DNA of 39,581 nucleotides from Fidelibacterota bacterium (GTDB taxonomy: Bacteria > Verrucomicrobiota > Kiritimatiellia > JAIPIQ01). Both the position numbers and the translations under genes were made by a program. Under the pieces are notes generated by a model that saw nothing but the letters and a program-made list of their open reading frames with translations, did no database searches and was not told where the DNA came from. The stretch covers positions 1 through 39,581 of the forward strand of contig JAIPIQ010000004.1 of the NCBI GenBank assembly GCA_021734645.1, in the 5' to 3' direction. This document shows positions 4,478 through 20,599 of the stretch, piece after piece. The stretch's first letter is position 1. Each line of letters opens with the position of its first letter.

Positions 4478-5512
4478 ATGCCCGCAAAATGCCTGCTGTG
4501 CCTATTCGTCATTGTTTCCCTGCTGTTGCCCTTGTCCGCGCAAAGCCAGCGTCTCGCTTTGGATGCGCCCGTGCCGGCCAACGCGCAAGCCACCGCCGTG
4601 GTCGCAGCACCCGCGACCCTGCCGCCCCCGCCGACCGCCCGGCAGTTTCGTGTCTGGTCCGGCCTGGGTATGTCGGCCGGCGACGTCACCTATCAGATCG
4701 GCGGCAACATCAAGATGGGCGGGGAGTCCATGCGGATGCATTTCCCGATCAGCGAGCTCGAGTTCCCCATGGACGTGGCCCTGGTGACCCTGGGTGCGGG
4801 CCTCCAATTGCCAAGCGGCTGGGAGTGGTTGGGCGAGCTGGGCATGAACCTGAGCGATCCGTCCTCGAAGATGAAGGACAGCGATTGGACGATTCCCCAT
4901 GCGCCGAGGGTCAAGACGATTTATTCCGAGAGTGACGCGGATTTGGATGCCTTCACGCTGGATGCGCGCGGGCGGCGCTGGTTTTACCGTCGGCAGGATG
5001 CCAGCGGCATGCGCTGGGCGCTGGGCGCGGGGGCTGGCCTCTATTACGCCAAGTACGAATGGGAAGCCTACAATGTGGACCAATGGTATCCCCAGGAGCC
5101 TTGGCGCGCACATTTCCGCCATGCGGGCGTGGGCATCACCTATGAAGCCACGGTCTTGATGCCCTATGTCGAGTTGGCCGGCCAGCTTGAGCGCGGCCCC
5201 TGGCACATGACCTTCTCCCTCGGCCTTTCGCCCTACACCCAGGTCGAGGACGTGGATGATCATGTACTGCGTTCCATTCGCGCCGAAACCGATGCCGACG
5301 GCACCGGCTTCAAAATGGAATTCGACGTGCGCTACGCCTTCAGCGCCAACTGGCAGGCCTTCGGCCGCCTGAACCTGCTGGGCTTCAGCGTGGACGGCAC
5401 CGAGAAGGACCATGTCTATGCCGGACCCGACGCCGGGAATCGCTGGGAGATTGACCACGAAATCGAAAGTCGGCAGACCCAACTGGTCGCCGGCATCACC
5501 CGCTCCTGGTAA
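4478..5512 (+). CDS. Secreted / outer-membrane beta-barrel-like protein of unknown function
   Basis: 344 aa; N-terminal signal peptide MPAKCLLCLFVIVSLLLPLSAQS; alternating amphipathic strands. Confidence 0.6.
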   Translation: MPAKCLLCLFVIVSLLLPLSAQSQRLALDAPVPANAQATAVVAAPATLPPPPTARQFRVWSGLGMSAGDVTYQIGGNIKMGGESMRMHFPISELEFPMDVALVTLGAGLQLPSGWEWLGELGMNLSDPSSKMKDSDWTIPHAPRVKTIYSESDADLDAFTLDARGRRWFYRRQDASGMRWALGAGAGLYYAKYEWEAYNVDQWYPQEPWRAHFRHAGVGITYEATVLMPYVELAGQLERGPWHMTFSLGLSPYTQVEDVDDHVLRSIRAETDADGTGFKMEFDVRYAFSANWQAFGRLNLLGFSVDGTEKDHVYAGPDAGNRWEIDHEIESRQTQLVAGITRSW

Positions 5513-6351: not shown

Positions 6352-8124
6352 TCAGACCTTGGCGCGGCCGGCGTATTTGGTGTGGAGCAGTTCGTGGGAG
6401 GTATGGCTGCCGGGGGTTTTGAGGAAGTCCTGGTAGATTTTCTTGATCTGCTCGTTTTCGTGGGACTTTCGGAGGGTTTTGCCTTCGTCCTCGGCATAGA
6501 TGGCCGCGATGCGTTTGAGGCGCACGCTGTCGTCGGTGAAGCGGGGTTGTCCGCCGCCGCCGATGCAGCCGCCGGGGCAGGTCATCACTTCGACGAAGTG
6601 ATAGGGTGCTTCGCCGCGCTTGAGGGCTTCGAGGACTTTCCGGGCGTTGCTCAGGCCATGGGCGACGGCGACCTTGACTTCGACGCCTTCGAGGAAGGCC
6701 CATTCGGGCAGCAGGTTTTCGAGTTTGAGGGTGGCCTCCTTGACGCCGTCGAGCCCGGCGACGGCGGTCAGGTGCAGGTTCTTTACGGGCAGCTCGCGCC
6801 CGGAAATGAGTTCGTAGACCGTGCGCAGGGCGGCTTCCATCACGCCACCGGTATTGGCGAAGATATCGGCCGCGCCGGAGGACAGTCCCAGGGGATCGTC
6901 CATCTGGCCATCGGGCAGGTTGCGGAACTCGATGCCGGCCTGGTCAATCATGCGGCCCAGCTCGCGGGTGGTCAGCACGTAATCCACGTCCTGCACGCCG
7001 CTGGAATTCATTTCGGGCCGTTGGGCCTCGAATTTCTTGGCGGTGCAGGGCATGACGGAAACCACGACCATATTCTCGGGTTTGCAGCCGATTTTCTGGG
7101 CGTAATAGGTTTTGGCCACGGCGCCGAACATTTGTTGGGGCGACTTGCAGCTCGAGAGATTGGGCAGGTATTGGGGATAGTAGTATTCGGCGAACTTGAT
7201 CCAGCCGGGGCTGCAACTGGTGAACATGGGCAGGGCCACGGGTTCCTTCTCGACCAGGGCCTTTTTCAGGCGCAGCAGCAGCTCCGTCCCTTCCTCCATG
7301 ATGGTCAGGTCGGCCGTGAAATTCGTATCGAAGACGCCATCGAAGCCCAGGCGGCGCAGGGCGGTGACCATTTTGCCGGTCACGAGGGTGCCGGGTTCAT
7401 AATCGAAACACTCGCCGAGGGCCGCGCGAATGGCCGGCGCGGTCTGGACCACGACCACTTTGGTGGGATCTTCGATGGCTTTCCACACCTCGTCAATGTG
7501 GCTGCGCTCGGTAATGGCGCCCACGGGGCAGACCGCCGCGCACTGGCCGCACTGCACGCAGGCCACGCCATCGAGATCCTGGGTGAAAGCCGGGCCGATG
7601 ACCGTATCGAATCCCCGGCCCTGGGGAAAGAGCGCGCCCACACCCTGCATCTCGCCGCAGACCGTGACGCACCGGCGGCATTTGATGCACTTGGCATTGT
7701 CGCGAATCAGCGCCGGCGTGCTTTCGTCGCGGGCAGCCTTGGCCCGGACCCCTTCGTAGGGCACCCGCTCGATGCCCAGCTCGTGGGCCAACTCACGCAG
7801 CTCGCAGTCCTCGTTGCGGTCGCAAACCTGGCAATCGCCGTCGTGCTCGCTCAGCAGCAACTGCACGACCTGCCGCCGGGCCGCGCGCACGCGCCCGCTG
7901 TGGGTCTTGACGACCATGTTGGGGGCCAACACCGTGGCACAGGCCGCCATGAGGGTCCGGGCGCCCTCGACCTCGACCAGACAGACCCGGCAGGCGCCCA
8001 GGGGCGGCTTGCCTTCGAGGTGGCACAGGGTCGGGATCCGGATGCCCAGCCCGCGGGCCGCTTCCAGGATGGTGGTACCGGCCGGTACGGTGGTTTTCTC
8101 GCCGTTGAGGGTGACTTCGATCAT
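6352..8124 (-). CDS. hydA: [FeFe]-hydrogenase catalytic subunit (HydA/HndD type)
   Basis: Likely start ATG 8124 (MIEVTLNGEKTTVPAG). N-terminal 2Fe-2S, His-ligated and 2x[4Fe-4S] clusters; H-cluster motifs TSCSPGW, MPCTAKKFE and TCPGGCIGGGGQPR. Confidence 0.95.
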   Translation of the reverse strand: MIEVTLNGEKTTVPAGTTILEAARGLGIRIPTLCHLEGKPPLGACRVCLVEVEGARTLMAACATVLAPNMVVKTHSGRVRAARRQVVQLLLSEHDGDCQVCDRNEDCELRELAHELGIERVPYEGVRAKAARDESTPALIRDNAKCIKCRRCVTVCGEMQGVGALFPQGRGFDTVIGPAFTQDLDGVACVQCGQCAAVCPVGAITERSHIDEVWKAIEDPTKVVVVQTAPAIRAALGECFDYEPGTLVTGKMVTALRRLGFDGVFDTNFTADLTIMEEGTELLLRLKKALVEKEPVALPMFTSCSPGWIKFAEYYYPQYLPNLSSCKSPQQMFGAVAKTYYAQKIGCKPENMVVVSVMPCTAKKFEAQRPEMNSSGVQDVDYVLTTRELGRMIDQAGIEFRNLPDGQMDDPLGLSSGAADIFANTGGVMEAALRTVYELISGRELPVKNLHLTAVAGLDGVKEATLKLENLLPEWAFLEGVEVKVAVAHGLSNARKVLEALKRGEAPYHFVEVMTCPGGCIGGGGQPRFTDDSVRLKRIAAIYAEDEGKTLRKSHENEQIKKIYQDFLKTPGSHTSHELLHTKYAGRAKV

Positions 8125-11100
8125 GACTGTTTCTCCGTTCCGCAAGGGGACTTGCCGTAATCGCACCGCAGGCAGCGGCGCGCCTGGCGCACGGCGGCGG
8201 CTTCATTCCAGGGCTGTTCAACTTCCGCAAAGTTATGGCGGCGGCGTTCGAGGGGGATGGTATTGAGTCCTTCGCGCCGGTAGGGCACGGGATCGGCGTC
8301 GGGATCGTAGTCCGTCGCCACCGCCTGCTCCCGCTGCCAGAAGGCGTGGTTCGCGCCCGTGAGGGCCTCGTCAATCGCCACGGCCACGCGCTCGCCGTCG
8401 GCGATGGCGCTGACCACGGACCAGGGTCCGGTGGCGGCGTCGCCGCCCGCGTAAATCCAGGGCACGGACGTCCGGCCGGTGACCGGATCGGCCTTGATCC
8501 AGCCGTTGCCGGTCATTTCGAGCCCGAGGCCGGGATCGAGCGCCTTGGCATCCAGCCGCTGGCCGATGGCCAGGATCACCTGGTCGCAGTCGAGCACGAA
8601 GTATTCATCGCTGCTGGCTTCGGGGCGGCGGCGACCGGTGCGGTCGAAATCGCCCAGGGTCATGGCCCGGCACTTCACGCCGCTGGCGGCCCCGTCGGCA
8701 TCCACCACGATTTCCTCGGGGGCGGCCAGGGTTTTGAGTTCGACGCCCTCCTGAAGGGCCTCCTCGATCTCCTCGGCATAGGCGGGCATTTCCTCGCGGG
8801 TGCGGCGGTAGAGCACGGTCACGCTCTCGGCGCCGAGGCGCAGGGCGGTCCGGGCGGCGTCAATGGCGGCATTGCCGCCGCCGATGACTGCCACGCGCTT
8901 GCCGATGGGCACGGATCCGCGCAGATTATAGCGCCGCAGGAATTCCATGGCCTCGGTCACGCCCCGGGCCTTGCTGCCCGGAATATCCAGCCCGATGCCC
9001 CGGGGCGCCCCCACGGCCAGGAACACCGCTTCGTAGCCCTCGTCCCGCAGGCTCGCCAGGGTGAAATCCCGGCCCAGCGCCTTTTCGGTCACCAGGTCCA
9101 CGCCCAGGCCCTCGATCATGCGCACCTCGCGGGCCAGCTCCTCGCGCGGCAGACGATAGGCCGGAATGGCCTGCACCAGCATGCCCCCCGGCCGCGGCTC
9201 CGCCTCGAAGACCCGTGGCTTGTAGCCCAGGCGCGCCAGGAAATAGGCGCCAGCCAGCCCGGCCGGCCCGGCCCCCACAATCGCGATCTTCCGGCCGGCG
9301 TTGACCTCATTCTCGCGCACCTCGGGCACCTGGATGGTCACTTCCTGATCCACCATGAAGCGCTTCACGCCCCGGATGGCCACGCTGTCGTCCAGGCTCG
9401 CCCGGCGGCATTTTTCCTCGCAGGTATGAAAACAGACGCGCGCGCAGACCGACGCGAAGGGATTGCGTTCGCGGTGGAGTTTCAGCGCCTCGGCGTAGCG
9501 TTTTTCGCCCACGAGCGAGACGAAGCCGGGCACATCCACGTGGGCCGGGCAGGCCGTCTGGCAGGGCGCGCGCACCAGGGCGGCGCAGACCCCCGCGTCG
9601 CACTGGCGGTCGCGGATATGGCGAATGTACTCCTCGCGGAAATGCCGAAGGGTCGAGAGCACGGGATTCGGCGCGGTCTGGCCGAGGCCGCACAGGGAGG
9701 ACTCCTTGATGAAGTGGCCCAACTCCTCGAGCTGGTCGAGATCTTCCATGCGCCCCTGACCGCCGCAAATGCGTTCGAGAATCTCGAGCATGCGCTTGGT
9801 GCCCACGCGGCAGGGCACGCATTTGCCGCAGGATTCCTCCTGGACGAACTCGATGAAGAAGCGGGCCACATCCACCATACAGGTGTCTTCATCCATCACG
9901 ATCAGCCCGCCGGAGCCCATGATGGCGCCGAGCTCGGCCAGGGGTTCGTAATCCAGGGGCACATTCAGGTGCTGCTTGGGAATGCACCCGCCGGAGGGGC
10001 CGCCGATCTGGGCGGCCTTGAACGGCTTGTTGTTGCGGATGCCGCCGCCCAGGTCGTAGATGATTTCGCCCAGGGGCATGCCGATGGGCACCTCGACCAG
10101 GCCGGTGTTGCGCACGGCGCCGGCCAGGGCGAACACCTTCGTGCCCTTGCTCGCGGGCGTACCGTGGCTGGCGTACCAATCCGCGCCGCGCAGCAGAATC
10201 GCCGGCACATTGGCATAGGTTTCCACATTGTTCAGGACCGTCGGACAATCCCAGAGGCCCTTCTGGGCCGGGAAGGGCGGGCGCGGGCGCGGCTCACCGC
10301 GCTTGCCCTCGATCGAGGCGATCAGGGCGGTTTCCTCGCCGCAGACGAACGCGCCGGAACCCATGCGGATTTCCAGATCAAAATCAAAGGTCGTGCCCAG
10401 GATGCCCGCGCCCAGCAGCCCGTACTGCCGGGCCTGCTCGATGGCCCGTTCGAGCCGCGCCACCGCCAGGGGGTATTCGGCGCGCACGTACACGTAGCCC
10501 TGGTTCGCGCCCACCGTGTAGGCCGCGATCGCCATGCCCTCGATCACGCTGTGGGGATCACCTTCGAGCACACTGCGGTCCATGTAGGCGCCCGGATCGC
10601 CCTCGTCCGCGTTGCAGAGCACATACTTCTGCGTCCCCTCGGCATGGCGCGTGAAATTCCACTTCAGCCAGGTCGGGAAACCGGCCCCGCCCCGCCCGCG
10701 CAGCCCCGAGCGTTCCATCTCCTTGATCACCGCTTCCGAATCCATCTCCGTCAGCACCCGGGCCAGGCCCTGGTAGCCGTCGCGGGCGATGTACTCTTCG
10801 ATCTGCTCGGGATCAATCCAGCCGCAGTTGCGCAGCACAATCGGCACCTGGCGCTTGAAAAACGGCAGTTCCGCGCGCTGGGCGCTGGCCTTTTCCCCGT
10901 GGGCATCCCGCACCACCAACCGCTCGACGGTTTCGCCGTTGAGCACATGCTTGGCGATGATATCCCCCGCGTCCTCGGGCTTGACGCCCTGGTAGAAAGT
11001 CTGGTCCGCGCCCATGAGCAGCACCGGCCCGGCCACGCAGGGGCCCATGCAACCCGTGCAGACCACTTCGACCCGTTCGGTCAGGTTGCGGGACTTGATT

Positions 11101-11282
11101 TCTTCGAGCAGGGCATCCCGCACGGCGCCGGCGCCGGAGGCGATGCAACTGCCGCCCATGCAGACCAGAATGGGCTGTCGGGCGCCCGTGGCGCGGGCCT
11201 GCATGGCCGCCTGGGCCTGTTGCGCGGCGTGTTGCAACGCCGCCGGATTCGCAATACGCGCGACTGCTTTCGTAATCATCAT
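8121..11282 (-). CDS. NuoF/HydB-like flavoprotein fused to a C-terminal GltD/NfnB-like NAD(P)-binding FAD oxidoreductase
   Basis: 1053 aa. N-terminal Trx-like 2Fe-2S (CMGGSCIASGAG...CTGCMGPC), NuoF FMN/NADH region (GLRGRGGAGFPTWLKW, CNADEGDPGAYMDR) and CGKCVPCRVGTKRMLE, then CQTACPAHVDVPGF, CARVCFHTCEEKCRR, GRKIAIVGAGPAGLAGAYFLARLGY, GKRVAVIGGGNAAIDAARTALRLGA. ATGA overlap with hydA. Confidence 0.93.
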   Translation of the reverse strand: MMITKAVARIANPAALQHAAQQAQAAMQARATGARQPILVCMGGSCIASGAGAVRDALLEEIKSRNLTERVEVVCTGCMGPCVAGPVLLMGADQTFYQGVKPEDAGDIIAKHVLNGETVERLVVRDAHGEKASAQRAELPFFKRQVPIVLRNCGWIDPEQIEEYIARDGYQGLARVLTEMDSEAVIKEMERSGLRGRGGAGFPTWLKWNFTRHAEGTQKYVLCNADEGDPGAYMDRSVLEGDPHSVIEGMAIAAYTVGANQGYVYVRAEYPLAVARLERAIEQARQYGLLGAGILGTTFDFDLEIRMGSGAFVCGEETALIASIEGKRGEPRPRPPFPAQKGLWDCPTVLNNVETYANVPAILLRGADWYASHGTPASKGTKVFALAGAVRNTGLVEVPIGMPLGEIIYDLGGGIRNNKPFKAAQIGGPSGGCIPKQHLNVPLDYEPLAELGAIMGSGGLIVMDEDTCMVDVARFFIEFVQEESCGKCVPCRVGTKRMLEILERICGGQGRMEDLDQLEELGHFIKESSLCGLGQTAPNPVLSTLRHFREEYIRHIRDRQCDAGVCAALVRAPCQTACPAHVDVPGFVSLVGEKRYAEALKLHRERNPFASVCARVCFHTCEEKCRRASLDDSVAIRGVKRFMVDQEVTIQVPEVRENEVNAGRKIAIVGAGPAGLAGAYFLARLGYKPRVFEAEPRPGGMLVQAIPAYRLPREELAREVRMIEGLGVDLVTEKALGRDFTLASLRDEGYEAVFLAVGAPRGIGLDIPGSKARGVTEAMEFLRRYNLRGSVPIGKRVAVIGGGNAAIDAARTALRLGAESVTVLYRRTREEMPAYAEEIEEALQEGVELKTLAAPEEIVVDADGAASGVKCRAMTLGDFDRTGRRRPEASSDEYFVLDCDQVILAIGQRLDAKALDPGLGLEMTGNGWIKADPVTGRTSVPWIYAGGDAATGPWSVVSAIADGERVAVAIDEALTGANHAFWQREQAVATDYDPDADPVPYRREGLNTIPLERRRHNFAEVEQPWNEAAAVRQARRCLRCDYGKSPCGTEKQS

Positions 11283-14699: not shown

Positions 14700-17564
14700 A
14701 TGCAAACCGAGCAGAATGGACGGGACAAGCGGGATTGGAGCGTCGGGGGCCGCGCGTGGCGGCGGGCCGGGTGGGCGGCGCTGCTGCTGGCGGCGCTGGT
14801 CTGGGGGGCGGGCGGCGCGCGGGCGGCGGCCGAAGCGGCGGACGAGGAGCTGGTCACCTTTACGGTGGAGGGGTTGCCGGGGCCTACGGATATGTCGGTG
14901 CCGGGGATGGCCGAGCGGGCGGTGGTGCGCGCCTTTCTGCGGCGGTATCCCCAGTACCGGATCGAGCCGTTCCTGATGCCTGCGATCGGGCATTCGGCCA
15001 TGGATTCCGGGCCGTTGATGGGGATTGCGGCGGGCGTGCCGCCCAACGCGGTGCGCATGTACTTCCGCATGAGTTCCACGTATATCGAGCATGGTTTTCT
15101 GGAACCGCTGGAGGAATTGCTGGCGCGGGTGCAGAGTGACGACCCCGGCCTGCGCGAGGCGGATGAGGAGGGCCGTTGGCTGACTCAGCCCCCGCCCGCG
15201 GAGGTGGCCTACTGGCGGGACCAGATTCTGGCGCGCGTGCCGCGGCCCGTCTGGCCAGTCATCTACCGGGAGGCTGGCGCCGCCAAGCGGGGCCTGTCGT
15301 CGGGCAAGCATATCTGGGCCATGCCCACGCGGGTCACCGTCAAGGCGCTGGTGTACCGCAAGGATATTTTTCAGGAGGCGGGACTGGACCCGGAACGGCC
15401 GCCCCAGACCTGGGACGAGGTGCTGGCGTATGCCCGGGCCATCCGCGCCCGGACGAACCGGCACGGCATTTTCATCCCCGCCGGGGAACTGATCAGTTGG
15501 GGATTTTATGATTACCTGATCGCGGACGGGGGGCGCTTTGTCGAGCAGGTCGCACCCGGCCGCTGGCGGGCCGCCTTCCATTCCCCGGAGATCGCCGAAG
15601 CGATTTACTTCCTCTGCCGCCTGGCCAACGAATCCTATGAAGTTGACGGCCAGACCTATACGGGCGCCGCGTTGCTGACCGCCACCGTCGAGGGCCGGCA
15701 ACTATTCAAGCAAGGGCAAGTGGGGATGACGACCACCTCGCTGGATTTAGACCGCATGACCGACATCAACCCGGAGACCACCGGTTTGGCGCCCGCGCCC
15801 CGCTCCCCCAAGGGCAACCGGGGCAGCGAATTGAACGCCCTCATGTATGGCGTCTTCAGCCAGATCACGCCGGCCCAGCGCCTGGCCGTCATGCGTTACA
15901 TCTGGTTCATTACCGGCGAGGAAGCCCAGGCGCTGCGCACGGAAATCTTCGTCAACAACGGGTTCGGCCATTTCGTCAATCCAGACTTGCTCGAGCGCTT
16001 CGGCTATCACGACGTGCTGCGCCGGGTGCCCCCGGCCTGGCGGGAAACCATAACCGCGGCCATGGAAAGCGGCGTGCCCGAGCCGTACGGCCAGAATACC
16101 CAGTTCATCTACGAATCCGTGTCCGCCCCCATCAACTGGGCCCTGCGGCAACCGTTGCTGGCGCTGCCGAAAGCGGTCGCCCTTGAGCGTATTCGCGAAC
16201 AACTCGCCGAGGCGGCCTGGCGCGTGGACCGTTTCATGCTGGGGGAGCTGTCCGCCAGCGAGTGGCGGCGGCGGCGCTGGATCGGCGGCGCCACGCTGGC
16301 CGTCATCATGACGTTGTTCGCGCTGTGCCTGGTCTTCGTCTGGAAGGCGTTTTCGGCTCAGGAGCGCCTGCTGGGCGACCGCCCGCACCTATGGCGCTTC
16401 CGGGTGGCCTACTGCATGATCGCGCCGGCCCTGCTGGTCGTGGTCTTCTGGCAGTACCTGCCCAAGCTGCTGGGCATGCCCCTGGCGCTTTTCAACTACG
16501 AACTGGTCCTGCCCAGTACGTTCGTGGGCATAGACAACTTCGCCACCGTGCTCTACGACGCCCGCTTCTGGCGCTCCCTCTGGAACACATTCTATTATGC
16601 CGCCCTGGTGGTCGGCCTCGGCTTCTGGCCCCCGATCCTGGTCGCGGTCCTGCTCGATGAAGTCCCCACCGATTTCTTCAAGTACTTCTTCCGCACCATT
16701 TTCTACCTGCCCATGATCGTCAGTGGCGTGATCATGATCTTCCTCTGGCTGCAACTGTTCAATCCCGCGGAAACCGGTTATCTGAATCAGGCCCTGTTGT
16801 CCCTCAACCGCCTCGGCCCGGTGGGGGCCACCCTGGTGCGGCTGCTCGGGCTCGGCTTGTGGTTCAGCTTCATCGGGGTCTTGCTGGCGGTGGTCTTTCA
16901 CTTGCGCGAGCTGACCTGGCCGGTGCGCGGCGCCGTGCTGGTTTTCGCCCTGGCGCTGCTGGGGGCGACCCTCTGGCCGCTGGTCAAGGCCTGGCGGGGG
17001 CCGACGGCCCTGGTGATCGATGCCCTGCATCTCGAAGCGTCCCAGGTGCGCGGATTCAACGGCGTGCGCGGTCTGCTGGCCGGCCTGATCGGGCGGTTTG
17101 ATCTGAAGCCCCTGGGCTGGGTGCAGGATCCCGGCCTGGCCATGTTGTGCGTGGTGATTCCCGGCGTCTGGGCCACCTCCGGTCCCGGCTGCATCATCTA
17201 CCTGGCCGCGCTCAAAACCGTGCCCTCGGACCTGGTCGAGGCCGCCACCATGGACGGCGCCAGCCTCCTCCAGAAGGTCAGCTATATCACCCTGCCGCGC
17301 ATCAAGTTCCTGATCCTGATTCAGTTGGTGGGCGCGGTGGTCGGCGCCATGCAGGGCGGCACCAACTTCATCCTGGCCATGACCGGCGGCGGACCCGACG
17401 GAGCAACACGCATCCTGGGCATGGATATTTTCCAGCGTTCGTTCATGGAGCTGAATTACGGCATCGGGGCGGCCATGGCCTGGATTCTGGGGGCGCTGGT
17501 CATCGGGTTGACCTCGATCCAACTGCGCCGCGTATCCAAAACCGAATTCGCCAACAAACAATGA
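14700..17564 (+). CDS. Extracellular solute-binding protein fused to an ABC transporter permease (MalF-like)
   Basis: 954 aa from ATG 14700. Signal/TM segment, SBP family 1-like region (SGKHIWAMPTRVTVKALVYRKDIFQEAGLDPERPPQTWDEVLAYARAI), TM at about aa 540, then permease with EAA loop EAATMDGASLLQKVSYITLPRIK. Confidence 0.9.
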   Translation: MQTEQNGRDKRDWSVGGRAWRRAGWAALLLAALVWGAGGARAAAEAADEELVTFTVEGLPGPTDMSVPGMAERAVVRAFLRRYPQYRIEPFLMPAIGHSAMDSGPLMGIAAGVPPNAVRMYFRMSSTYIEHGFLEPLEELLARVQSDDPGLREADEEGRWLTQPPPAEVAYWRDQILARVPRPVWPVIYREAGAAKRGLSSGKHIWAMPTRVTVKALVYRKDIFQEAGLDPERPPQTWDEVLAYARAIRARTNRHGIFIPAGELISWGFYDYLIADGGRFVEQVAPGRWRAAFHSPEIAEAIYFLCRLANESYEVDGQTYTGAALLTATVEGRQLFKQGQVGMTTTSLDLDRMTDINPETTGLAPAPRSPKGNRGSELNALMYGVFSQITPAQRLAVMRYIWFITGEEAQALRTEIFVNNGFGHFVNPDLLERFGYHDVLRRVPPAWRETITAAMESGVPEPYGQNTQFIYESVSAPINWALRQPLLALPKAVALERIREQLAEAAWRVDRFMLGELSASEWRRRRWIGGATLAVIMTLFALCLVFVWKAFSAQERLLGDRPHLWRFRVAYCMIAPALLVVVFWQYLPKLLGMPLALFNYELVLPSTFVGIDNFATVLYDARFWRSLWNTFYYAALVVGLGFWPPILVAVLLDEVPTDFFKYFFRTIFYLPMIVSGVIMIFLWLQLFNPAETGYLNQALLSLNRLGPVGATLVRLLGLGLWFSFIGVLLAVVFHLRELTWPVRGAVLVFALALLGATLWPLVKAWRGPTALVIDALHLEASQVRGFNGVRGLLAGLIGRFDLKPLGWVQDPGLAMLCVVIPGVWATSGPGCIIYLAALKTVPSDLVEAATMDGASLLQKVSYITLPRIKFLILIQLVGAVVGAMQGGTNFILAMTGGGPDGATRILGMDIFQRSFMELNYGIGAAMAWILGALVIGLTSIQLRRVSKTEFANKQ

Positions 17565-17596: not shown

Positions 17597-19471
17597 ATGT
17601 CCATTTTAACCACGGTGGAAGCCCAGAGCCCCAAGGGGCGCCTTTTTCAGGCGGTGGTCTTCCTGCTGCTGATTGCGGGCGGCATTACGATGGTCTATCC
17701 CTTCGTCCTGATGGTCTCCGGCGCCCTGCGCAGTGAAATGGATGTTGCCAGTATGACGGCGGTCCCCGAGTATTTGCACGAAGACACCATGCTGGCCCGC
17801 AAGTTTCTGGAAGCCAAATACAATTTCAGCGTCGCGACCATGAACCGCGCGCGCCTGTCCCAGGGCTATGATTTTGCCCAGGTGGCCGTCCCTTTGCCCC
17901 CCGATCCGGCCCGCGTGGCCGCCCTGACCCGCTTCGTGGCCCAAGTCGAGATCCCGGACCACTGGTGGACGCTGGGCGGCACCCTGCTCTACCGCCAGGG
18001 ATCCACCCGGACCCTCCGGGAACTGCAGGCCCGCATCCGCGCACGCTACGATGATGATCTGGGCGCCCTGGCCGAGGATCTCGGCGCCCCCGTGCGCCAA
18101 TGGCGCCTCGTGCAGGTGATGCCCCCGGTCTGGACCGATGTGCGGCAGGCCTTCAGCAACAGTTCCCTGTTTCAAGAGTACTTTGCCCTGCTGCGCGAAA
18201 AGCCGCTGGCCTATCGGGCGTTCAGCACGCCCACCGGCAACTATCTCGAAAATATCATCTATCCCAACTACGGCCAATCCTCCGTGGACGCCTACAATGC
18301 GGCCCACCGCCGCGCTCTGACGTCCTTCGCCGACTTGCACCTCCCCCGCACCCTCCCCCCGCCCGACCAACCGCGCGCCCGCCAGGAATGGATTGATCAT
18401 GCCCGCACCATGCTCCATCCCGCCTTCATCCGCGTCGCGCAGCCCGCCCCCGTATTCCAAGACTTCCTGCGGGCGCGCCACCCCACCATCGCCGCGCTGA
18501 ACGAGCGCTGGCAGACCGCCTACACCGATTTCACGGAAATCGAAATGCCGGGCGAAAAAGAATGGCTGGCCGGCGGCCGCCGCCGGGACTACGACGCCTT
18601 TCTGGCCACCCGCCCGCCCGAAGAATTGTACCTCGTGGGGCCGGAGTACGCCTGGCAGGACTGGCTGCAAGCCGCGTATGGCTCCCTGACCGCCCTCAAC
18701 GCGGATTTCGGGACGGCGTACACCGACTGGGCGGAATGCCCGTTGCCGATTGACCATGCCGAGGCCGCGTTCGTCCTGGCCAACCGGGGCGTCCTGCGCC
18801 GCGAACTGGCCGCCAACAATTTCGTCAATGTGCTGGTCGCCGTCCTCCTGGAGGGCCGCCCCTTCATGAATACCGTCATTTATGTCGTGCTGGCCCTGAT
18901 TCTGGCCCTGACCCTGCAACCCCTGGCGGCCTATGCCCTCTCGCGCTTCTCCCCGCCCCATACCTGGCACATCATCCTGCTGTTCATGGCCGTCATGTCG
19001 TTCCCCCCCATGGTGGGCATGATCCCCCAGTTCCTGATCCTGCGCAAACTGAACCTCATGAACACCTTCGTGGCGTTGCTCCTGCCCGTGATCGTCAACG
19101 GCTACCTGATCTTCCTCCTCAAGGGCTTCTTCGATTCCCTGCCCAAACACCTCTACGACGCCGCCATGATTGACGGCGCCTCGGAACTGCGCATCTTCTG
19201 GGAAATCACCATGTCCATGAGCAAACCCATCCTGGCCGTGGCCGCCCTGCGCGTCTTCAACAACGTCTGGATGTCCTTCATGTATCCCCTGCTGGTGGCG
19301 CCGGACGAAAAAATGCAGATCCTGGCCGTCTGGCTCTACCAGTACCAGCGCCTGGCCGGCACCCCCATGGTCTTCGCCTCGATCCTGATCACCAGCATCC
19401 CCACCCTCGTGATCTTCATGTTCGCCCAACGCATCATCATGCGCGGCATCGCCGTGCCCGTGGAAAAATAG
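17597..19471 (+). CDS. Carbohydrate ABC transporter permease (MalG-like) with a large ~365-aa insertion after TM1
   Basis: 624 aa; N-terminal TM, repeat-rich insertion, then permease core (PLAAYALSRFSPPHTWHIILLFMAVMSFPPMVGMIPQFLILRKLNLMNT; EAA-like LYDAAMIDGASELRIFWEITMSMSKP). Confidence 0.9.
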   Translation: MSILTTVEAQSPKGRLFQAVVFLLLIAGGITMVYPFVLMVSGALRSEMDVASMTAVPEYLHEDTMLARKFLEAKYNFSVATMNRARLSQGYDFAQVAVPLPPDPARVAALTRFVAQVEIPDHWWTLGGTLLYRQGSTRTLRELQARIRARYDDDLGALAEDLGAPVRQWRLVQVMPPVWTDVRQAFSNSSLFQEYFALLREKPLAYRAFSTPTGNYLENIIYPNYGQSSVDAYNAAHRRALTSFADLHLPRTLPPPDQPRARQEWIDHARTMLHPAFIRVAQPAPVFQDFLRARHPTIAALNERWQTAYTDFTEIEMPGEKEWLAGGRRRDYDAFLATRPPEELYLVGPEYAWQDWLQAAYGSLTALNADFGTAYTDWAECPLPIDHAEAAFVLANRGVLRRELAANNFVNVLVAVLLEGRPFMNTVIYVVLALILALTLQPLAAYALSRFSPPHTWHIILLFMAVMSFPPMVGMIPQFLILRKLNLMNTFVALLLPVIVNGYLIFLLKGFFDSLPKHLYDAAMIDGASELRIFWEITMSMSKPILAVAALRVFNNVWMSFMYPLLVAPDEKMQILAVWLYQYQRLAGTPMVFASILITSIPTLVIFMFAQRIIMRGIAVPVEK

Positions 19472-19579: not shown

Positions 19580-20599
19580 ATGGCCGGCAAGAAGCCCAGT
19601 GATGAATTGAATTTACGCCTGTTGGCCCGCACCCTGGGCGTGAACGTTTCCACCGTGTCCCGCGCCTTGGCCGGCAAACCGGGCGTCAGTCCCGCCCGGG
19701 CGCGGCAGGTCACGGAACTGGCCGCCTCCCTGGGGTACCGGCCCCGGCCCTACCGGGAAAAGTATGCCAACTGCATTGGCCTGATTGTCCCGGTCCACCA
19801 CCAATTGGTGGAAGATTACCTGATGAAGCTGATTACGCTGACGATCATCGAGGCGGACCGCCACGGCAAGCATGTGCACCTGGACTTCCTCCGCTACGAC
19901 GCCCGGCCGGCCCGCCTGCCGGCCGTCGTGCGCGAGAATCGCGTGGACGGCGTATGCCTGGCCGGCTCTTTCCCGGCCCGCTTCCATGCCGCCATGCGGC
20001 AGCATTGCCAGGCCGTGGTCTCCCTGAGCGAGACGATCGAACGCACAGGCAACGACAGCGTCCTCGCGTCCTCGCGCGAGGCCACCCGCGAGCTGGTCCG
20101 CGGACTGGCGGCCATGGGCCATCGCCGGATCGGCCTCGTGCTGACCGACCCGGCCTTCCCCTCCATGCGCCACAGGAAAGAGGCCTATCTCGCGGAATGC
20201 CACGCCGGCGGTCTCCCCCTCCACAAGGCCTGGTTGGTCGAGGGCGTTTCGGCGGCGCAGCAGGGCGGACAGGAAGCCGTCCGCCGTTACCTGCACGCGC
20301 GGCAACTGCCCACCGCCATTATCTTCGGTAACGACCAGATGGCCATGGGCGGAGCGTTCGAGCTGGCGCGCAGCGGCTACCGGATTCCCGAGGACGTCAG
20401 CATTGCCGGTTACAACAATACCGAGGCCATGCAGGAATTGTCGCCCGCCCTCACCAGCATCGACAACCAGGCCGAGGAAATTGTCCGCCAGGGTATGGAC
20501 CTGCTGATGGACCGCATCGCCCACCCGGGCGGACCGCCCCGCCAGATCGTCCTGCAGAACCAGGTCCACTGGCGCGCCAGCACCGCCCCCCTTGTTTGA
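19580..20599 (+). CDS. LacI-family transcriptional regulator
   Basis: 339 aa; LNLRLLARTLGVNVSTVSRALAGKPGVSPARARQVTELAASLGYRP HTH; periplasmic-binding-like effector domain. Confidence 0.95.
   Translation: MAGKKPSDELNLRLLARTLGVNVSTVSRALAGKPGVSPARARQVTELAASLGYRPRPYREKYANCIGLIVPVHHQLVEDYLMKLITLTIIEADRHGKHVHLDFLRYDARPARLPAVVRENRVDGVCLAGSFPARFHAAMRQHCQAVVSLSETIERTGNDSVLASSREATRELVRGLAAMGHRRIGLVLTDPAFPSMRHRKEAYLAECHAGGLPLHKAWLVEGVSAAQQGGQEAVRRYLHARQLPTAIIFGNDQMAMGGAFELARSGYRIPEDVSIAGYNNTEAMQELSPALTSIDNQAEEIVRQGMDLLMDRIAHPGGPPRQIVLQNQVHWRASTAPLV

Follow-up and report, generated by a model that had tools for sequence, protein, structure and literature searches.

The closest described relatives of the system considered here are the CUT1 type I importers, such as E. 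coli MalFGK2-MalE, AlgM1M2SS, and LpqY-SugABC. The MalG-side subunits of these importers are usually 270-300 aa long with a short P1 loop between TM1 and TM2 (a typical rather than strictly defining feature), and those that have been solved span 274-305 aa. In the maltose system, the binding protein MalE contacts loop P2 of MalF as well as P1 of MalG, according to the account of Daus et al. (2007) cited in PMC3150292. In the window analysed here, meaning the whole 39,581-nucleotide stretch of contig JAIPIQ010000004.1, an importer is encoded whose likeness to the CUT1 type is seen in a permease core that matches AlgM2, MalG, and SugB by both sequence and fold, in an EAA-like loop, and in one homologous locus (L038) with a MalK-type ATPase gene and a GH94 gene beside the permease gene. 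Unlike the usual CUT1 importer, it has a MalG of 624 aa, with P1 filled by a 350-aa repeat domain, and a MalF-side subunit that carries the substrate-binding protein (SBP) as a fusion.

Covalent attachment of this kind is known from other importers, OpuA being, like GlnPQ, an importer with a binding domain fused to its membrane domain. To our knowledge, few systems have been used to study how a tethered SBP is kept in place above an ABC importer, most of them importers of amino acids or osmolytes, and we know of no GlnPQ/OpuA-type importer that carries a repeat array on the partner permease. In GlnPQ, SBDs are fused to the membrane domain (PMC8025302). GlnPQ and OpuA thus resemble the SBP-MalF fusion of the window in that binding domain and permease share one chain, but they import amino acids or osmolytes and belong to other permease families. 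Full-text literature searches found no description of repeat-bearing MalG proteins, of SBP-MalF fusions, or of GH42 domains in permeases, and the repeat domain in P1 is apparently undescribed.

A MalG-type permease with an enlarged P1 loop

The gene occupies positions 17597-19471 of the forward strand and is an open reading frame with an ATG start and stop-free full-length homologues. The encoded protein belongs to a CUT1-type (maltose/UgpE-like) ABC sugar importer, of which it forms the MalG-side permease. Pfam places BPD_transp_1 at aa 462-618 (E = 4.7e-11) and detects this core in all 37 MalG homologues compared; an EAA-type loop is present, with D526-G527-A528 invariant in the homologues, and Foldseek matches the core to AlgM2 (4xtc_N) and MalG chains with E-values of about 1e-6. 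TM1 (aa 20-38, 17654-17710, +) was located by hydropathy and lies within a helix of the AlphaFold2 model (aa 12-44), while TM2-TM6 and the cytoplasmic EAA-like loop make up the permease core at aa 418-624 (18848-19468, +), as delimited by Foldseek and hydropathy. Between the two lies the insertion. The original prediction had described an oversized MalG with some 365 additional residues between TM1 and the core; the insertion is there, and its proper extent is somewhat smaller, about 350 aa (aa 46-395, 17732-18781, +).

Hydropathy of the 624-aa protein gives six hydrophobic segments, with the N-terminus inside and the EAA-like loop after TM4. This arrangement places the TM1-TM2 loop outside the cytoplasm, so that a cytoplasmic insertion is ruled out and the extracytoplasmic location first proposed for it holds. 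A sequencing or assembly artefact as the source of the insertion is likewise ruled out, because full-length homologues of this MalG occur in many genomes. Confidence in the anatomy of the protein is high.

The insertion contains five units, each found by a unit HMM that was itself built from the repeat-MalG family: unit 1 (17783-17944, domain E = 2e-11), unit 2 (18011-18199, E = 2e-8), unit 3 (18236-18409, E = 2e-10), unit 4 (18446-18610), and unit 5 (18641-18760, E = 4e-12), all on the forward strand. All five motifs first picked out by eye were recovered, within one or two residues of the positions then given; they start at aa 73, 149, 223, 293, and 359 (nt 17813, 18041, 18263, 18473, and 18671), so that motif-to-motif spacing is 66-76 aa. 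In the window sequence alone, units 4 and 5 are the sole clearly similar pair (z = 12.4 relative to shuffled sequences); among the remaining nine, z-scores are 1.7-3.6 for six pairs and about 0 for three. An automatic hhalign self-comparison of the insertion returned no repeats. Manually excised units were compared two by two as profiles built from the 37 homologues, and all ten pairs proved related, with hhalign E-values from 6e-5 to 7e-17, as against 0.01 or more for controls in which a unit was paired with TM1 or a permease-core segment; some spacer segments overlap the adjoining units and score for that reason. Chance repetition is ruled out by the profile comparison, though three of the ten pairs score nothing in the single sequence, and the proposed divergent five-unit repeat is borne out. 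Across 20 members, the closest relative of each unit in another species stood at the same array position in 100 of 100 cases, which indicates that the unit duplications are old. Judged by sequence, the five repeats are ancient and divergent.

The predicted fold agrees with a regular array. AlphaFold2, read here for secondary structure and confidence only, gave a pLDDT of 87 for the full 624-aa protein and a pLDDT of 94.6 with a pTM of 0.91 for the insertion alone, along which a helix-helix-loop-helix-strand element of three helices and a three-residue strand recurs. A Foldseek search of the PDB with the insertion model returned no global match (best E = 0.11), and a viral origin was rejected, BFVD having given no match. 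The insertion is thus confidently predicted to adopt a regular repeat fold that has no global counterpart in the PDB.

Relationship to glycosidase barrels and distribution of the family

Local matches tell where the repeat may have come from. Pfam detects Glyco_hydro_42 at aa 286-335, in unit 4, the most GH42-like of the five (E = 1.6e-8), covering only profile positions 153-208 of 376, and the same family is present in 35 of the 37 homologues. Searched against PDB sequences, the insertion profile matched the GH42 entries 9ta3 (E = 4e-9 over 123 positions) and 1kwg (E = 6e-7), and a single-unit profile matched 1kwg with E = 1.7e-9; through these profile matches the helical hairpin segment of the GH42 barrel is recognised in the repeat units. 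Local Foldseek matches of the insertion fall in barrels of the GH50, GH42, GH14, and GH167 types, with superpositions of 34-36 residues at 1.0-1.2 Å to the GH42 entry 6ptm and to 7vkx. From these sequence comparisons, each unit holds a helical hairpin homologous to that of GH42-type glycosidase barrels. The resemblance to GH42 noted from the sequence at the outset is therefore well founded, while the resemblance to GH2 noted with it was not seen, the matches being to GH42 and, more weakly, to GH50, GH14, GH167, and related barrels.

The motif shared with GH42 beta-galactosidases (1kwg, 9ta3, 6ptm) and with the related GH50, GH14, and GH167 barrels is YG..eaLN..wgT..y.sf..i.lP. GH42 enzymes have it once, within the barrel, whereas the repeat-bearing MalG has it in tandem, without a barrel and without active-site residues: predicted secondary structure and the Foldseek search of the PDB gave no complete (beta/alpha)8 barrel in the insertion, and the invariant insertion columns of the homologue alignment do not include the conserved acid pair (the acid/base and nucleophile glutamates). 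A segment from the periphery of an enzyme fold seems to have been multiplied into a structural scaffold. Near one repeat-MalG locus, a GH42-like glycosidase (L064:440-2680, -) has its own barrel with one copy of the hairpin.

The repeat-MalG family is widespread in the phylum of the window and occurs in other phyla as well. The window's own genome encodes a paralogue at 50% identity, and a second pair of fusion and repeat-bearing MalG is seen there next to DNA gyrase genes (G000:C143:10712-12589; L002, L060). Within the class, 73 of 97 genomes gave protein matches, many of which cover just the permease core; some 30 are full-length. Across the phylum, 388 genomes were searched with the insertion profile and 239 gave matches, the weak ones among them being probably GH42-type enzymes. 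Relatives at 43-57% identity come from MAGs labelled Latescibacterota, Gemmatimonadetes, Phycisphaerae, PVC group, and Victivallaceae. By the unit profile, most members have five units, members of 553-617 aa have about 3-4 that can be detected, and one of 845 aa (L101) has up to eight matches, of which one is weak. In a scan of 38 related genomes with this profile, tandem matches, judged by eye among those listed, occurred only in MalG-type frames; the non-MalG matches listed were mostly single and in long frames, which are probably glycosidases, and one frame of 1370 aa had two matches about 2 kb apart.

Pairing with SBP-MalF fusions and possible roles of the array

Directly upstream of the repeat-bearing MalG lies the SBP-MalF fusion, a 954-aa single open reading frame (14700-17564, +) with a signal-peptide-like N-terminus, an SBP (SBP_bac_1, E = 5.6e-11), a transmembrane segment, and a UgpA/MalF-type permease (BPD_transp_1, E = 3.9e-8). 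Its best NCBIfam matches are UgpA, GlcT, MalF, and UgpB, a family other than that of GlnPQ; at about aa 715-800 a variable, partly hydrophobic segment of the MalF part breaks alignments in two. Downstream is a LacI-family regulator (19580-20599, +; Pfam Peripla_BP_3, 4e-33, and LacI, 1e-6), probably a sugar-responsive repressor. Elsewhere in the window, genes for a [FeFe]-hydrogenase large subunit and a NuoF/flavin-type subunit (6352-11282, -) suggest an electron-bifurcating hydrogenase, and an Omptin-family match (4478-5512, +; Pfam E = 4.3e-15), accompanied by a weak match to porins, is probably an outer-membrane beta-barrel.

The co-occurrence with SBP-permease fusions that the original prediction had proposed to examine is strict. 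A repeat-bearing MalG adjoins an SBP-MalF fusion in 51 of 51 distinct judgeable loci, which were drawn from search hits (53 unit-repeat rows minus two duplicates) and share ancestry, so are not independent, as against none of 11 short MalGs (275-319 aa), all 11 of which have an unfused MalF. Three unit-repeat rows were scored as lacking the fusion, two owing to frame breaks (L020, L114) and one to a contig end (L021). An apparent counter-example, a 680-aa MalF frame next to a short MalG (L130), was set aside, its N-terminal part having no Pfam or SBP profile match; this part reads like out-of-frame DNA, with MalF apparently starting at 'MRRDTLKGYL'. Frames of 661-769 aa elsewhere (L085-L089) match both MalF and MalG profiles and are likely MalF-MalG fusions. 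A second class of long MalG (L080-L084 and L137; 554-614 aa) has the SBP-MalF fusion as its neighbour in six of six cases. Its insert also follows TM1, and no relation to the repeats could be detected by hhalign (probability 0.1%); it is all-beta by appearance, and the two members scanned had no Pfam match in it. That an unrelated insert is paired just as regularly suggests that a large P1 domain, whatever its sequence, accompanies the tethering of the SBP.

The pairing with SBP-MalF fusions and the unrelated second insert in the same loop favour reading the array as a built-in docking scaffold for the tethered binding protein, the best of the explanations considered and one that we regard as about as likely as not. 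The P1 loop would have been enlarged into a tandem array of hairpins related to the GH42 barrel, and this array would guide the covalently tethered SBP and hold it above the mouth of the channel, as an extended form of the contact between P1 of MalG and the free binding protein known from the maltose system, while a MalK-type ATPase would power import as usual. The cargo may be an oligosaccharide: a sugar is suggested by the LacI-family regulator, by the GH94 and MalK-type genes at L038, and by GH95 genes near two other loci (L062, L036). The extracytoplasmic topology also speaks for a dock, as do the pairwise distances of the insertion, which over 22 loci follow the partner fusion protein (partial r = 0.54 for its MalF part and 0.21 for its SBP part) and not the insertion's own permease core (-0.08). 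Several observations count against a dock. The distance correlation is descriptive, comes from only 22 loci with insertion distances near saturation, and is weaker for the SBP part than for the MalF part. Unit number ranges from about 3-4 to eight, which a precise dock need not tolerate. Some fusions have no adjoining MalG (for example L118 and L122-L124).

Docking and glycan binding had both been suggested for the insertion from the start, and it is docking that the fusion linkage and the second insert speak for. Glycan binding is the main rival, a possible but unlikely one, by which the repeats would bind an oligo- or polysaccharide in the periplasm, either raising its local concentration or passing it to the SBP. 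It would fit the derivation of the hairpin from glycosidase-type barrels, the two tryptophans that are invariant in the insertion, the GH94, GH95, or GH42-like genes near some loci, and a unit number that varies as it does in multivalent binders. The hairpin is, however, a peripheral part of the barrel, from which sugar binding need not follow once the barrel is gone; the invariant residues, few and dispersed, may have a structural role, and both the strict link to the SBP fusion and the unrelated insert of the second class would be left unexplained. Very unlikely is a role, independent of the SBP, as a spacer or as an anchor in the envelope that sets the position of the importer with respect to peptidoglycan or an outer-membrane porin. 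A long periplasmic array of variable length would suit such a role but leaves the strict SBP-MalF pairing unexplained, and Pfam found no known envelope-anchoring domain. That the permease has taken up a working glycosidase domain, as the significant GH42 match might suggest, is rejected as extremely improbable, given the partial coverage of the profile and an insertion with neither barrel, global GH42 fold match, nor conserved acids.

We put forward a broader reading tentatively, with somewhat less confidence than the dock itself. On this view, importers that tether their SBP would have gained a large built-in periplasmic dock on the other permease more than once. In one case a hairpin related to the glycosidase barrel would have been multiplied to give a new repeat fold, and in at least one further case an unrelated domain would have been used; the number of units might adjust the reach of the dock or the size of the cargo. 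Short MalGs without the fusion, repeat inserts with it, and unrelated inserts with it form a natural comparison set. The proteins described here are a widespread sugar-importer family with a confidently predicted and apparently undescribed repeat domain at the very loop that touches the binding protein in the maltose system.
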